A stretch of 11,958 nucleotides of DNA from Candidatus Latescibacterota bacterium (GTDB lineage: Bacteria > JAAXHH01 > JACQVL01): contig JACQVL010000222.1 in NCBI GenBank assembly GCA_016209865.1, positions 1-11,958 on the forward strand, given 5' to 3'. Shown here one piece after another: positions 451 to 10,666 of the stretch. How positions within the stretch are numbered: position 1 is the stretch's first letter; every line of letters begins with the position of its first letter. The notes beneath the pieces are model-generated. The model did not search any database and was not told the origin of the DNA. It worked only from the letters and a program-made list of their open reading frames with translations. The position numbers and the translations under genes are program-made.

Positions 451-598
451 AAGAAACACTCCTTCCTGTTATAAGGGTGAGCGACCGGGTCTCATGCAAT
501 CAAGGATGAACTTTGTATCCGTCTCGATGCGGGCGATCACAGAGGATCGCCCCTACCGACCACCGATCACCGATCACCGACCACTGCATTTACAGACC
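451..598. repeat. Gap between two Spy-like genes: partial hairpin element plus heptamer array
   Basis: This 148-bp gap carries no credible gene. At 531-556 lies a hairpin (GGGCGATC stem, 6-base loop, GATCGCCC) followed by CTAC. It matches the right half of the complete element at 8696-8751, differing in the loop; the left half is missing or decayed. It runs directly into a four-unit heptamer array at 555-582. The part nearest the downstream gene (451-530) holds the ribosome binding site of that gene and a TATAAC-like hexamer about 20 bases before its ATG, without a convincing -35 box. Confidence 0.7.
555..582. repeat. Heptamer tandem array A (4 x 7 bp)
   Basis: Four in-register 7-bp units read ACCGACC, ACCGATC, ACCGATC, ACCGACC on the plus strand and end at ACTG (583-586). 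The array abuts the CTAC end of the hairpin element at 531-556. It has the same flank and almost the same units as the array at 7671-7698. Confidence 0.85.
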
Positions 599-6035: not shown

Positions 6036-6741
6036 TCACCTCGGGTCCTGTCAGTACATAGTTGGAAGCGATGACCCCGTCGTTCAGGAAGAGGACGCGG
6101 TCGCCGCGTGCGGCATCTTTCGCGTTATGGGTGACGAGGAGGATCGTCTGGCCGCGGTCGTCCGCGCACGCGCGCAGCAGCCGCATGATCTCCTCCCCCA
6201 CGTGGGTGCCAACGTTCCCGGTCGGTTCGTCGGCGAGGACGATAGCGGGCGTGTTGGCGAGCGCCCGGGCGATGCTCACCCGCTGCATCTCGCCGCCCGA
6301 CAACTGGTGGGGGAAATGCTCCATCCGGTCGGTGATCCCGACCCACTCCATCAGCGCGTCCAGATGGGCGCGTCTCGATTCCGGCCGTTCCCCGCCGATG
6401 AGCAGGGGGAGGGCGATGTTCTCCCGGACGGTGAGGTTGGGCAGCAGGTTGAAGAACTGGAAGATGAACCCGATCTTCGCCCGGCGGAGCAGGGTCATCC
6501 GCCGCCGGCTCAGGCCGATGATCGACTGGCCGTCGATCATGATGTCGCCCGATGTCGGCCGCTCCAGGCCGGACAGGAGGTGCAGCAGCGTACTCTTCCC
6601 GCATCCGCTCGGCCCCATGATCGTCAGAAACTCGCCCTTCTGGACGCTCAAGGTAATCCCGTTCAACACACAGAGCGTGCGGTCGCCGGTCGTAAAGACT
6701 TTGGTTAATGCGCGTGTTGCCAGGACGGGGGAATCAGTCAT
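5992..6741 (-). CDS. LolD/MacB-type ABC transporter ATP-binding protein
   Basis: This 249-residue ATPase powers the permease encoded by the overlapping downstream gene. Visible motifs are Walker A GPSGCGKST (43-51), Q-loop Gln95 in FIFQFFNLLP, ABC signature LSGGE (147-151), Walker B VLADE (168-172) and the switch His205 in VTHN. This order and sequence fit the LolD/MacB/FtsE class. One oddity is the D-loop: where these ATPases usually have GNLD, this one reads GNVG, so the conserved Asp is Gly178. The start ATG at 6741 has no clear Shine-Dalgarno; a heptamer array (6748-6775) occupies the space directly upstream, so translation may depend on coupling or on a later start. The C-terminal 15 residues overlap the permease gene. 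Confidence 0.93.
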   Translation of the reverse strand: MTDSPVLATRALTKVFTTGDRTLCVLNGITLSVQKGEFLTIMGPSGCGKSTLLHLLSGLERPTSGDIMIDGQSIIGLSRRRMTLLRRAKIGFIFQFFNLLPNLTVRENIALPLLIGGERPESRRAHLDALMEWVGITDRMEHFPHQLSGGEMQRVSIARALANTPAIVLADEPTGNVGTHVGEEIMRLLRACADDRGQTILLVTHNAKDAARGDRVLFLNDGVIASNYVLTGPEVNERRIFACLQELGI

Positions 6742-6747
6742 AGATCA

Positions 6748-6775
6748 GTGACGAGTGACGAGTGACAAGTGACAA
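6748..6775. repeat. Heptamer tandem array C (4 x 7 bp) with distant inverted copy
   Basis: Four 7-bp units read GTGACGA, GTGACGA, GTGACAA, GTGACAA on the plus strand, preceded by CA so that the array begins CAGTGACGAGT (6747-6757). The inverse ACTCGTCACTG occurs at 6803-6813, giving 11-bp arms around a 45-base loop. The inverse copy contains the stop codon of the SecF-like gene. This fills the 67-bp gap between that gene and the ATPase gene. Confidence 0.85.
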
Positions 6776-6808
6776 GTACCCCTATCATTGCCTGTCACCG
6801 GCGACTCG

Positions 6809-7651
6809 TCACTGTTTTTTCCGCCGGCCGAGATGATCTCGTTCGTCGATCTCATGCTGATCCTGCCATGCCGCCAGCAGCGGAGGAGACAGGACGAGGG
6901 CGGTGTACGGGCTGACGAGCGCGCCGATCAGGACGAGCAGGCCGATCGAGCGGATCGGGCCTGCGCCGATCAGGACGAGCGGGAGGGCGATCAGGATGAG
7001 GCTCATCGTGAAGACCAGCGCCGGCCGGAGCGATTGGAGCGCACCCCCGGTGACTGTCTGGGCCGGCATCTCCCGCCGGGCGGTTCGCAGGGGAGGCCGG
7101 AGCCGGTCGAGGATGGCGCAGGTCAGACTCAGGGTGTATCCCCCGATGGCGACGATGCCCAGCACGATCGAGGGGGACAACGGGGTCCCGACCCCGACGA
7201 CGAAGAGAGCGGTGACGGCCATCCCGTACACCGGGAGGACGGTCGAGATGACCGCCAGCCGGGCCTGTACCCGCCAGGCCGCGTAGGACGCAGCGGCGAA
7301 CGTCACCAGCAGGAGGCCGGCCCAGATCGGAAGCCAGCCGCCGTTCATCGCCCGGTCGAACAACGCGTTGATCAGTCCGCCGGCCACGGCGGCGAGGACC
7401 GCGATCGTGATCGTGCGTCCCGGCTGGTCGTCGAACTGCCAGCCCAGGTAGACGAGCACGAGCAGGCCGGCGATCAGCAGCCCGAACGCAAACCCGCCCC
7501 AGTTCCCGATGTCCCCGATGTCCACGGTCACGACAAACCCGCTCCGCAGCCAGAACGTCAGCACCCCGGCGGCGAACAGCGCCGCAGCCGTCACAACGAC
7601 AACCGGCGCGTTCCCCGTCCAGGCGGTGTAGAATTTTTTGATGAGGTCCAT
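6809..7651 (-). CDS. Orphan SecF-like polytopic membrane protein, degenerate
   Basis: This 280-residue membrane protein has about seven hydrophobic segments. The C-terminal half (about 130-265) follows SecF: a segment like RLAVISTVLPVYGM, then GIVAIGGYTLSLTCAILDRLR matching the SecF GYSxNDTxVxFDRxR element, then LVLIGALVSPYTALVLSPPLLAAW matching the final SecF spans. Differences matter: the HD pair normally found in the first segment reads PV, and the (N/D)DT of the second reads SLT, so membrane acidic residues thought to serve proton-driven SecDF function are absent. The roughly 100-residue periplasmic domain after the first span also seems missing. No secD is nearby. The start ATG at 7651 has a weak GAG; an upstream in-frame extension to 7732 would run through repeat DNA and the tktC end. 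It is best called a SecF/RND-fold relative of unknown function. Confidence 0.65.
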   Translation of the reverse strand: MDLIKKFYTAWTGNAPVVVVTAAALFAAGVLTFWLRSGFVVTVDIGDIGNWGGFAFGLLIAGLLVLVYLGWQFDDQPGRTITIAVLAAVAGGLINALFDRAMNGGWLPIWAGLLLVTFAAASYAAWRVQARLAVISTVLPVYGMAVTALFVVGVGTPLSPSIVLGIVAIGGYTLSLTCAILDRLRPPLRTARREMPAQTVTGGALQSLRPALVFTMSLILIALPLVLIGAGPIRSIGLLVLIGALVSPYTALVLSPPLLAAWQDQHEIDERDHLGRRKKQ

Positions 7652-7670
7652 AATTGATCTCAGCGCGTTT

Positions 7671-7698
7671 ACCGACCACCGATCACCGACCACCGGCC
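7671..7698. repeat. Heptamer tandem array B (4 x 7 bp) overlapping the transketolase C-subunit stop
   Basis: Four units read ACCGACC, ACCGATC, ACCGACC, ACCGGCC on the plus strand, followed by ACTG (7699-7702), the same flank as the array at 555-582. On the minus strand it encodes the last residues (AGGR) and the TGA stop of the transketolase C-terminal subunit. Confidence 0.85.
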
Positions 7699-8684
7699 AC
7701 TGCCCTTGCCGCCTCCGCGATGCTCTCCGCATCCATCCTGTAGCGCTTCACTAAGTAGGGGATCGACCCGCTCTCGCAGAAACAGTCGGGAATGCCGACT
7801 CGTTTCAAACGGACAGACAGTCCGGCGTCGATCGCCGCATCCGCCACCGCGCTCGCCAGCCCGCCGGTGATGACGTGATTCTCGGCGGTGACGACGGTGT
7901 TCACGCGACCCACCAATGAGAGCACGGCGTCCCGGTCGAACGGCTTCAGCGTGCTCACGTGCAGCACGGCAGCCTGGATGCCTCCATCGGCTAACTGCGC
8001 GGCCGCCTCCAGCGCCCGTCCCGTCATCAAGCCGGTGCTGATGAGGGCAACGTCTCGCCCGTCCCGCAGTAATTTCGCCTTGCCCAGGTCGAACCGGTAC
8101 GCGGTGGGGTCGAGCACGATTGGCACCTGGCCGCGGAGCACGCGCATGTAGACGGGGCCGTCGTAGTCGGCGATCGCCTCGACCGCCTGCGCGATCTCGG
8201 TCGCGTCGCACGGGTCGATCACGACGACGTTGGGCATCGCGCGCATCAGCGCGAGGTCTTCGATCCCCTGGTGCGTGCCGCCGTACCCGGTCGTCAGTCC
8301 GGGCAGTCCGGCGATGATCTTGACGTTCGTCTTCCCCAGGGCGGCGCCGATGGCGATGAAGTCGTACGCCCGGCGGGTGGCGAACACGCAGTACGTCGTG
8401 GCGAACGGGATGAACCCGGTGCGGGCGAGTCCGGCCGCCACTCCGATGAGGTTCTGTTCCGCCATGCCGATCTGAAAAAATCGTTCAGGAAACCGCTCGG
8501 CGAACACGTGGATATCGGTGTATTTGCCCAGGTCGGCGGTCAGCCCGACGATCCTCGTGTTGCGCTCACCCGCCCGGACGAGGGCGTGACCGAACGGGGC
8601 GGCCGCCGTCGCCGTTGCTCCTGCCGTGTCGGACGACAGCAGCGTGCCGGTGACACCGGGGGAGGGGTTCGTTGTCGTCGCCAT
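7683..8684 (-). CDS. Transketolase, C-terminal (pyrimidine-binding) subunit
   Basis: This 333-residue protein forms the second half of a split, thiamine diphosphate-dependent transketolase and would pair with the product of the preceding gene. After an Ala/Thr-rich 30-residue N-terminal extension comes the pyrimidine domain (about 31-190). It contains the catalytic Glu76 in IGMAEQNLIGVAAG that activates the cofactor, an aromatic FATRRAYDF segment (101-109) and GGTHQGIEDLALMR (135-148) with a substrate-binding His138. The transketolase C domain (about 200-325) holds DVALISTG and the VTAENHVITGG segment. ATG at 8684 has AAGGA 6 bases upstream. The last residues AGGR and the stop lie in a heptamer array, so the native C-terminus seems to have been replaced or extended by repeat DNA. 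The substrate is unknown; split transketolases occur in sugar catabolic clusters such as apulose-4-phosphate use. Confidence 0.92.
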   Translation of the reverse strand: MATTTNPSPGVTGTLLSSDTAGATATAAAPFGHALVRAGERNTRIVGLTADLGKYTDIHVFAERFPERFFQIGMAEQNLIGVAAGLARTGFIPFATTYCVFATRRAYDFIAIGAALGKTNVKIIAGLPGLTTGYGGTHQGIEDLALMRAMPNVVVIDPCDATEIAQAVEAIADYDGPVYMRVLRGQVPIVLDPTAYRFDLGKAKLLRDGRDVALISTGLMTGRALEAAAQLADGGIQAAVLHVSTLKPFDRDAVLSLVGRVNTVVTAENHVITGGLASAVADAAIDAGLSVRLKRVGIPDCFCESGSIPYLVKRYRMDAESIAEAARAVAGGR

Positions 8685-8695
8685 ATCGATTCCTT

Positions 8696-8751
8696 GTAGG
8701 GGCGAATCTCGTATTCGCCCCGATACGGGCGATCACAAGGATCGCCCCTAC
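8696..8751. repeat. Complete 56-bp double-hairpin GTAGGGGCG element
   Basis: The outer ends GTAG/CTAC are inverted. Hairpin 1 has GGGGCGAAT (8699-8707), a 5-base loop and ATTCGCCCC (8713-8721). Hairpin 2 has GGGCGATC (8727-8734), a 5-base loop and GATCGCCC (8740-8747). A 5-base GATAC joins them. The element fills almost the whole space between the two transketolase genes: its minus-strand start GTAG provides the TAG stop of the N-subunit, and its other end touches the AAGGA ribosome binding site of the C-subunit. It is related to elements at 531-556 and 9687-9757. Confidence 0.85.
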
Positions 8752-9609: not shown

Positions 9610-9637
9610 AAGGACGAAGGACGAAGTAGTAAGGACG
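9610..9637. repeat. Heptamer tandem array D (4 x 7 bp)
   Basis: Units on the plus strand are AAGGACG, AAGGACG, AAGTAGT (decayed) and AAGGACG, in register and followed by an A-rich run. It is the inverse of array E at 9861-9888 across the same gap. Confidence 0.8.
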
Positions 9638-9686
9638 AAAAATAAGAGGAAAAGGGCTCTTCCGAGATTTTGGCGGAATTCAGCAT

Positions 9687-9757
9687 TGTAGGGACGCAAT
9701 TTATTGCGCCCTCTTTGGACATGATCCACGAAGGGCGCGATGAATCGCGCCCCTACA
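9687..9757. repeat. 71-bp GTAGGG double-hairpin element, diverged
   Basis: The outer ends TGTAGGG (9687-9693) and CCCTACA (9751-9757) are inverted. The first hairpin pairs CGCAAT with ATTGCG around 9695-9708. The second is GGGCGCGAT (9733-9741), a 2-base loop and ATCGCGCCC (9744-9752). A 21-base spacer separates them. The architecture equals the 8696-8751 element, but the stem words differ and the spacer is longer. Confidence 0.8.
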
Positions 9758-9860
9758 GGTGACCGATCTTGGGCATCATACCTCATCAGGGTCATGGTTC
9801 CGTAAAAAAGTCGGAAGAACCAGGAAAAGATTTTTCGTCCGTCCTGCATCCTTGCTTTTT

Positions 9861-9888
9861 CGTCCTTCGTCCTTCATCCTTCGTCCTT
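9861..9888. repeat. Heptamer tandem array E (4 x 7 bp)
   Basis: Units on the plus strand are CGTCCTT, CGTCCTT, CATCCTT, CGTCCTT. It is flanked on both sides by CCTTGCTTTT-like sequence (about 9850 and 9885), and further CATCC/CGTCC remnants lie at about 9835-9850. It is the inverse of array D. Confidence 0.82.
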
Positions 9889-9892
9889 GCTT

Positions 9893-10666
9893 TTACGACA
9901 GCTCCATCCCGCCGGTGAAGTTGAACCGCTCGGCGGTGACGTACGCGGCCGCGTCGGACGCCAGCCAGACGGCGGCCTCGGCGACTTCGGCCGGTTCGAC
10001 ACGGCGACTCATAGGGAGTCCCTTCGTGCGCTCCGCCCGCAGCTCTTCGGCGGACTTGCCCGTGACGCGCACCAGGTCGTGTTCGAGCGCGTCGATCATC
10101 CCACCGGTCATCCGGCCGGGCGCGATGCAGTTCACCGTGATCCCGTACGGCGCCCAGGCGACGGCGGCGGCGCGGGTCATGCTGTCGACGGCGGCCTTGC
10201 TGGCGGCGTACGAGACGAAGTTGGGGAACCCCATCTTCGAGGCAGGCGTCGTGATCGTGATGATCCGGCCATACTGCTGCGGGATCATCACCCGCGCCGC
10301 GGCCTGCATGCAGAAGAACGCCCCACGAGCGTTCACCCCGAACACCCGGTCCCACCGTTCGGGCGTCACGTCGAGGATGGCATCGACCAGACAGATCGCC
10401 GCGCAGTTGACGACGATGTCGAGCCGGCCGAACCGGGCGACGACGGCGTCGACGAGCTGGCCGGGCACGGTCGCGTCGGCGATATTCCCCTGGAGCGCCA
10501 TGCCCTGTGTACCCTGTCCAGCGAGTTCCAGCGTCTCGACGGCCGCCTGCTGGTTCAGGTCGGCCACGGCGACCGTGGCGCCTTCACGGGCGTACACTCT
10601 CACGACCTCGCGGCCGAGGCTTCCGCCGCCGCCGATGATGAGGGCAATGCGGTTCTGCAGCGTCAT
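9893..10666 (-). CDS. Short-chain dehydrogenase/reductase (classical SDR), atypical catalytic Thr
   Basis: This 257-residue Rossmann-fold oxidoreductase probably interconverts a hydroxyl and a keto group using NAD(H). The cofactor loop is GGGGSLG (12-18), and Asp36 at the end of strand 2 favours NAD over NADP. The NNAG element reads NCAA (87-90). The catalytic set shows Asn112 in VNARG, Tyr153 and Lys157 in YAASK, but the position 13 residues before Tyr, normally Ser, is Thr140. The C-terminal GGMEL region is typical. ATG at 10666 has AAAGGTG 7 bases upstream and lies 22 bases after the MacB-type permease stop, so both probably share a transcript. With the split transketolase downstream it suggests a sugar or polyol pathway; the substrate is unknown. 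Confidence 0.9.
   Translation of the reverse strand: MTLQNRIALIIGGGGSLGREVVRVYAREGATVAVADLNQQAAVETLELAGQGTQGMALQGNIADATVPGQLVDAVVARFGRLDIVVNCAAICLVDAILDVTPERWDRVFGVNARGAFFCMQAAARVMIPQQYGRIITITTPASKMGFPNFVSYAASKAAVDSMTRAAAVAWAPYGITVNCIAPGRMTGGMIDALEHDLVRVTGKSAEELRAERTKGLPMSRRVEPAEVAEAAVWLASDAAAYVTAERFNFTGGMELS

Follow-up and report, generated by a model that had tools for sequence, protein, structure and literature searches.

Probably incidental supply of stop codons by heptamer elements and GTAG-REPs tolerated at gene edges in a Candidatus Latescibacterota genome

Stop codons that lie inside dispersed repeats in the genome of a Candidatus Latescibacterota bacterium probably result from the position of these repeats and not from their targeting to stops. 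We consider it likely that two kinds of small element, heptamer elements and GTAG-REPs, are tolerated at gene edges, and that the termination signals they provide are incidental. The starting point was a window of 11,958 nucleotides, here meaning the whole stretch of DNA that was analysed. The metagenome-assembled genome to which it belongs, as contig 172, has 356 contigs and 3.75 Mb and is 83% complete. Statistics are based on the window plus 120 other contigs picked by number without regard to content, altogether 1.206 Mb or 32% of the draft genome. Genes were called with a home-made dicodon script whose start positions are approximate; checked on the window, it retrieves the genes with identical stops. 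The gene assignments of an earlier, sequence-only reading are upheld: an ABC ATPase, a SecD_SecF_C protein (SecF-like), the C- and N-halves of a transketolase (TktC and TktN), an SDR and two MacB/FtsX permeases.

Heptamer elements and GTAG-REP doublets

The repeats of the window and the stops associated with them are as follows, with the basis of each assignment in brackets.

555..585, minus strand: heptamer element of the GGTGGTC family (inverted-repeat search, TRF, sequence)
6747..6777, plus strand: heptamer element of the AGTGACG family, left arm of an inverted pair (TRF, family scan)
6791..6814, minus strand: degenerate AGTGACG right arm, which holds the SecF-like TGA stop (sequence)
6809..6811, minus strand: TGA stop of the SecD_SecF_C protein, 6809-7657 (ORF, domain, sequence reading)
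7671..7701, minus strand: heptamer element of the GGTGGTC family, encoding the last residues of TktC and its TGA (TRF, family scan, sequence)
7683..7685, minus strand: TGA stop of the transketolase C-half protein, 7683-8684 (ORF, domain, sequence reading)
8696..8751, no strand assigned: GTAG-REP doublet, REPIN/BIME-like, GTAGGGGCG...CGCCC / GGGCG...CGCCCCTAC (inverted repeat, RNA fold)
8748..8750, minus strand: TAG stop of the transketolase N-half protein, from GTAG (ORF, domain, sequence reading)
9610..9639, plus strand: heptamer element of the AAGGACG family, left arm (inverted-repeat search, TRF, family scan)
9689..9756, no strand assigned: second GTAG-REP doublet, within the AAGGACG pair (sequence; fold z -7.6)
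9859..9888, minus strand: heptamer element of the AAGGACG family, right arm (inverted-repeat search, TRF, family scan)

Tandem repetition in this genome is dominated by a period of seven. In 1.2 Mb, 139 period-7 arrays were found, against 0-5 for each of the other periods from 4 to 13 and for 15, and none in shuffles; the 101 arrays of period 14 are a harmonic of period 7. Alignment within each family shows that the arrays begin and end at constant points, comprise about four units (~30 nt) and carry a variant of unit 2 that recurs, as in AGTGACG AGTGAC(A/C) AGTGACG AGTGACG AG or ATTTTGG ATTTTAG ATTTTGG ATTTTGG ATT. Four copies of AAGGACG, GGTGGTC, AGGGGTC or CGGGGTT define further families, and with others there are at least 11. 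A scan with 11 family consensus sequences, in which overlapping elements of long AAGGACG arrays are partly counted separately, gave 377 heptamer elements in 1.2 Mb and none in shuffled DNA. The arrays thus look like discrete copied elements and not like products of local slippage. A few lie deep within called genes (L044 6388-6419, L049 16764-16792, L076 1715-1745 and 3561-3590); these may be linkers or mark broken genes, and 30 nt of period 7 should upset the reading frame.

The second class is a GTAG-tagged hairpin, of which 75 intergenic copies were counted in 1.2 Mb, 67 of them starting with GTAGGGGCG. The element at 8696-8751 has the GTAG tag followed by a palindrome (GTAGGGGCGATCCTTGTGATCGCCC), and both this element and that at 9689-9756 are inverted doublets. 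GTAG-tagged REPs and REPINs described elsewhere (PMC3733652, PMC2817692) likewise combine GTAG with a palindrome, form inverted doublets and lie beside 3' ends. A RAYT gene is associated with that class; no match to RAYT (Y1_Tnp, PF01797) was found in this 83% complete genome. A degenerate GTAG-REP doublet at 514-555 is fused to the GGTGGTC array at 555..585.

Stop codons inside elements

Three genes of the window end inside repeats, as the sequence-only reading had stated, and direct reading of the minus strand bears this out at 6809-6811, 7683-7685 and 8748-8750. The SecF-like frame ends ...AAAAAACAG-TGA-CGAGTCGCC, with the stop inside the right arm of that inverted pair (6747-6777 / 6791-6814), CAGTGACGAGT. 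TktC ends GCAGTGGCCGGTGGTCGG-TGA-TCGGTGGTCGGT, inside the GGTGGTC array at 7671-7700, and TktN ends GAGGCGTCG-TAG-GGGCG, where TAG is part of the GTAG end of element 8696-8751. Equally correct was the remark that the SDR stop is four bases from an array: its TAA occupies 9893-9895, and the AAGGACG array at 9859-9888 begins four bases beyond.

Does the arrival of a repeat alter the protein? That reading had proposed to look for altered C-termini where the repeats begin, and the answer differs between genes. TktN homologs finish QLEASx or QLEESx with a TGA stop, so the REP-supplied TAG and the native end are one codon apart; the SDR of the window has the same C-terminus as its homologs (GGMELx), so its stop is native. 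In these two proteins the end residue is thus the same as in homologs, plus or minus one, the outcome that the sequence-only reading had named as its refutation. TktC is different: the array encodes its last residues, its tail AVAGGR is unlike that of every homolog, and the homologs (70-79% identity, several phyla) have short, non-conserved tails and mixed stops. Alignments of the SecF-like protein to same-order homologs cease near residue 266 of 282, which places the stop past the conserved core.

Across the 1.206 Mb, 85 of 983 called stops (about one gene in 12) overlap a heptamer element, 79 of them in sense orientation, against 10.1 expected under uniform placement. Stops thus lie in repeats more often than by chance, a comparison that the sequence-only reading had proposed. 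We also set the count against a tolerance null, in which elements are placed randomly in their own intergenic region plus a tolerated gene tail, the length of the tail being the one free parameter. This null gave 26, 55±6, 74±7 and 95±7 overlaps for tails of 3, 12, 20 and 33 nt, and 84 were observed; the outcome depends on the assumed tail, and at a tolerance of 3 nt the observed overlaps exceed the null 3-fold. The observed overlap matches the null at a tail of about 20 nt, that is, the heptamer excess vanishes under restricted placement.

Targeting of stops such as TAG and TGA, which the sequence-only reading had considered, would call for an enzyme that places the repeat at these codons. 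It could produce the naive enrichment of 85 stops over 10, and would suit the GTAG-REPs, in which all 11 overlapped stops among the 75 hairpins are TAG (22% of all stops are TAG; Fisher p = 5e-8). Ten of these 11, however, are the TAG of the element's own GTAG, internal to the REP itself, and that REP termini often supply TAG stops has already been published (PMC3733652). In the case of the heptamer elements, a device aimed at TGA or TAG would yield a single codon phase, whereas element starts use all three (9, 7 and 6 in the AGTGACG family), which argues against targeting, as does the location of the overlapped stop in unit 1, 2, 3 or 4 of the array. Among native stops 0-12 nt ahead of an element, TAA is over-represented and TAG under-represented, contrary to what TAG/TGA targeting predicts. 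Elements also adjoin 5' ends, and the null is not exceeded at tolerances of 20-33 nt. Reading frame, stop usage and the null model all speak against stop targeting, which we reject as very improbable. Agreement with the tolerance null, the use of three frames and C-termini that are either unaltered (TktN, SDR) or non-conserved (TktC, SecF-like) together indicate that stops are not targeted.

The broader claim of the same reading, that repeats insert preferentially at gene 3' ends or are tolerated only there, survives in part. A concentration at 3' ends is real: 59 elements start 0-9 nt past a stop, against 26±5, 31±5, 35 and 45±6 in the null with tails of 33, 20, 12 and 3 nt. This excess, about twofold over the uniform intergenic null, points to some edge attraction or selection beyond tolerance. 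The restriction to 3' ends does not hold, since elements also occur at 5' edges, about 15 nt from the start. The median gap between element and gene is 2 nt past stops and 15.5 nt ahead of starts, and the latter leaves room for ribosome binding. In the window, the left arm at 6747..6777 sits 5 nt upstream of the ABC ATPase start (region 6739-6746), a distance that offers no space for the usual ribosome binding site.

The mechanism that we propose starts from two small dispersed classes, heptamer elements and GTAG-REP doublets, which occupy intergenic space and directly abut gene edges. The first consists of ~30-nt elements of four tandem heptamers, in many families, usually set as head-to-head arms that frame an intergenic region. 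In the families involved, the gene-facing G-strand presents TGA, TAG or TAA within about 21 nt in every frame. An arm that enters the last codons of a gene, where conservation is poor, would therefore close the frame inside the element and leave the protein nearly unchanged. GTAG-REPs would contribute their TAG likewise. The supply of stops would then be a by-product of position and tolerance.

Arrangement and possible origin of the elements

Same-family neighbours 30-200 nt apart are head-to-head in 85 of 86 cases, and 79 non-overlapping pairs flank intergenic regions. Their spacers measure 14-220 nt and are mutually unrelated, except for known small palindromes nested within them. Near gene edges the G-rich strand points away from the gene (170:17 at 3' and 98:15 at 5' ends, singles and paired arms together). 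Within 40 nt of an edge this outward orientation holds for single elements (100:17 at 3' ends, p 2e-15; 44:15 at 5' ends, p 2e-4) and for all paired arms (124:0). Such an orientation carries stops for a gene that runs into the array, which explains the stops found there.

The AGTGACG arms at 6747-6777 and 6791-6814 are predicted to pair as an RNA hairpin (-40.8 kcal/mol, z -6.4), as is the GTAG-REP at 8696-8751 (-42.4 kcal/mol, z -8.3). In the predicted folds 6747-6814 and 8696-8751 the stop codon lies in the 5' arm. The strength of these hairpins (z -6.4 to -8.3) makes a role in separating or protecting adjacent transcripts plausible, and transcribed pairs may act as RNA hairpins that separate neighbouring genes. 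Mismatches between paired arms number 531, against 501±12 in random pairings; the arms of a pair are slightly less alike than randomly paired ones, which lends no support to selection for a perfect hairpin. On the same count we rejected the idea that one arm is a copy of the other or that conversion maintains their complementarity.

How did the arms get there? We infer that they arrived as insertions. That they are terminal inverted repeats of MITE-like transposons, mobilised by a transposase recognising four-heptamer ends, is possible but rather unlikely. The head-to-head pairs, fixed ends and many copies speak for it, and so do the absence of the main AGTGACG family from 15 other genomes of the same order or phylum and the ATTTTGG arms, which often differ as left and right ends might. 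Against it stand the unrelated spacers, which led us to reject a MITE with a conserved interior, and the absence of a target-site duplication, direct repeats of 4-9 nt not being in excess. In the 83% complete genome a profile search gave only two DDE_Tnp_1 matches and no rve or Y1_Tnp, and more than ten families would require more than ten specificities. A telomerase-like reverse transcriptase adding G-rich heptamers was rejected, as no RVT_1 was found in the same genome. It is doubtful, too, that the arms serve a DNA- or RNA-binding regulator of the IHF/HU kind as binding sites that selection keeps at gene edges. Their constant four-unit length and inward orientation would suit such sites, and a report on Geobacter metallireducens (PMC2700814) proposes regulator binding for tandem-repeat sites that are paired on opposite strands; more than ten unrelated families in one genome, the lack of the AGTGACG family in same-order relatives and the absence of a known ligand do not.

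Plain polymerase slippage is the usual account of simple repeats, cited for heptamers in PMC4692102. As the source of these arrays it is highly improbable: hundreds of dispersed sites, and unrelated IMG/VR contigs as well, carry identical 30-mers that agree in their internal variants and fixed ends, and the copy number stays tightly at about four. Slippage may still change the unit number locally. IMG/VR contigs that vary in G+C contain identical 30-32-mers, and they often combine several families and head-to-head pairs. The contigs L225-L248, which carry these 30-mers, are classed as viral, and many may be misclassified bacterial DNA. A more speculative reading, to which we give only tentative credence, takes the arms as the termini of mobile or copied DNA of an uncharacterised class, with a shared architecture (four heptamers, ~30 nt, A-rich borders) and differing sequences, which would spread between distant bacteria, insert head-to-head round unrelated spacers and rewrite gene 3' ends without a known transposase.

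Several minor observations concern the composition of pairs. In ATTTTGG pairs (e.g. L049 10832-10936, L089 9335-9443) the variant heptamer is often unit 2 in one arm and unit 3 in the other, an asymmetry of the sort that left and right ends might show. The spacers of heptamer pairs often contain a third dispersed palindrome, GTCATTCCCGCGCAAGCGGGAATCCAT, which resembles the ATTCCC-N8-GGGAAT repeat type (L069 3172-3307, L083 84-219, L110 1900-2029 and many other sites). Repeatedly, an (aaaatc)AGTGACG arm comes immediately after a GGTGGTC arm (L090 4916-5088, L093 9968-10129, L134 2531, L084 3816), as if one had inserted at the inner edge of the other or the two travelled jointly.

Related repeats in other bacteria

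Precedents in Xanthomonas, Nostoc and Geobacter metallireducens mean that this kind of element is already known. A literature search with the exact heptamer strings matched no paper. The GGGAATC and GGGGA(T/C)T repeats of Xanthomonas and Nostoc (Rehm et al. 2015, PMC4692102) are G-rich intergenic heptamers, in Xanthomonas mostly of four units and in convergent inverted pairs. They lie up to 50 bp past stops on the sense strand, stop overlap included, and antisense upstream of starts. Our arrays share with this type the tandem heptamers of about four units, the intergenic location in many copies and the convergent pairs with inward orientation. The published repeats form one family per genome with 2 to 26 units, whereas here at least 11 families keep a fixed length of ~30 nt. 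Unlike the Xanthomonas and Nostoc repeats, the present families are probably not all capable of forming a G-quadruplex; AGTGACG and AAGGACG are among several without runs of three G.

As far as the available portion of PMC2700814 goes, Geobacter metallireducens has four- and five-heptanucleotide elements, among them a four-heptamer element in 49 copies, and tandem-repeat sites paired on opposite strands at variable distance, partly within genes; its heptamers are other sequences, stop codons are not raised in that portion, and the sites are named there as putative sites of a global regulator (IHF/HU). The TAACTGA repeats of Beggiatoaceae and Cyanobacteria (PMC4679880) are likewise heptamer arrays scattered through intergenic DNA, and their taxonomic distribution is patchy, but they are a single sequence in direct repeats, mostly just upstream of starts. 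What is new here is the coexistence of many families of one architecture, and that the overlap with stops is shown to follow from position.

Heptamer arrays have so far been described family by family and left unexplained, and a genome with many families in head-to-head pairs is a clear test case for how they spread. The overlap between repeats and stops is accounted for without stop targeting, and annotated C-termini in such genomes should be read with caution, being partly derived from repeats. In a genome of the same order (G013, L249-L268), 400 kb contained 10 heptamer and 27 octamer arrays, the latter recalling the paired octanucleotide sites of Geobacter metallireducens.
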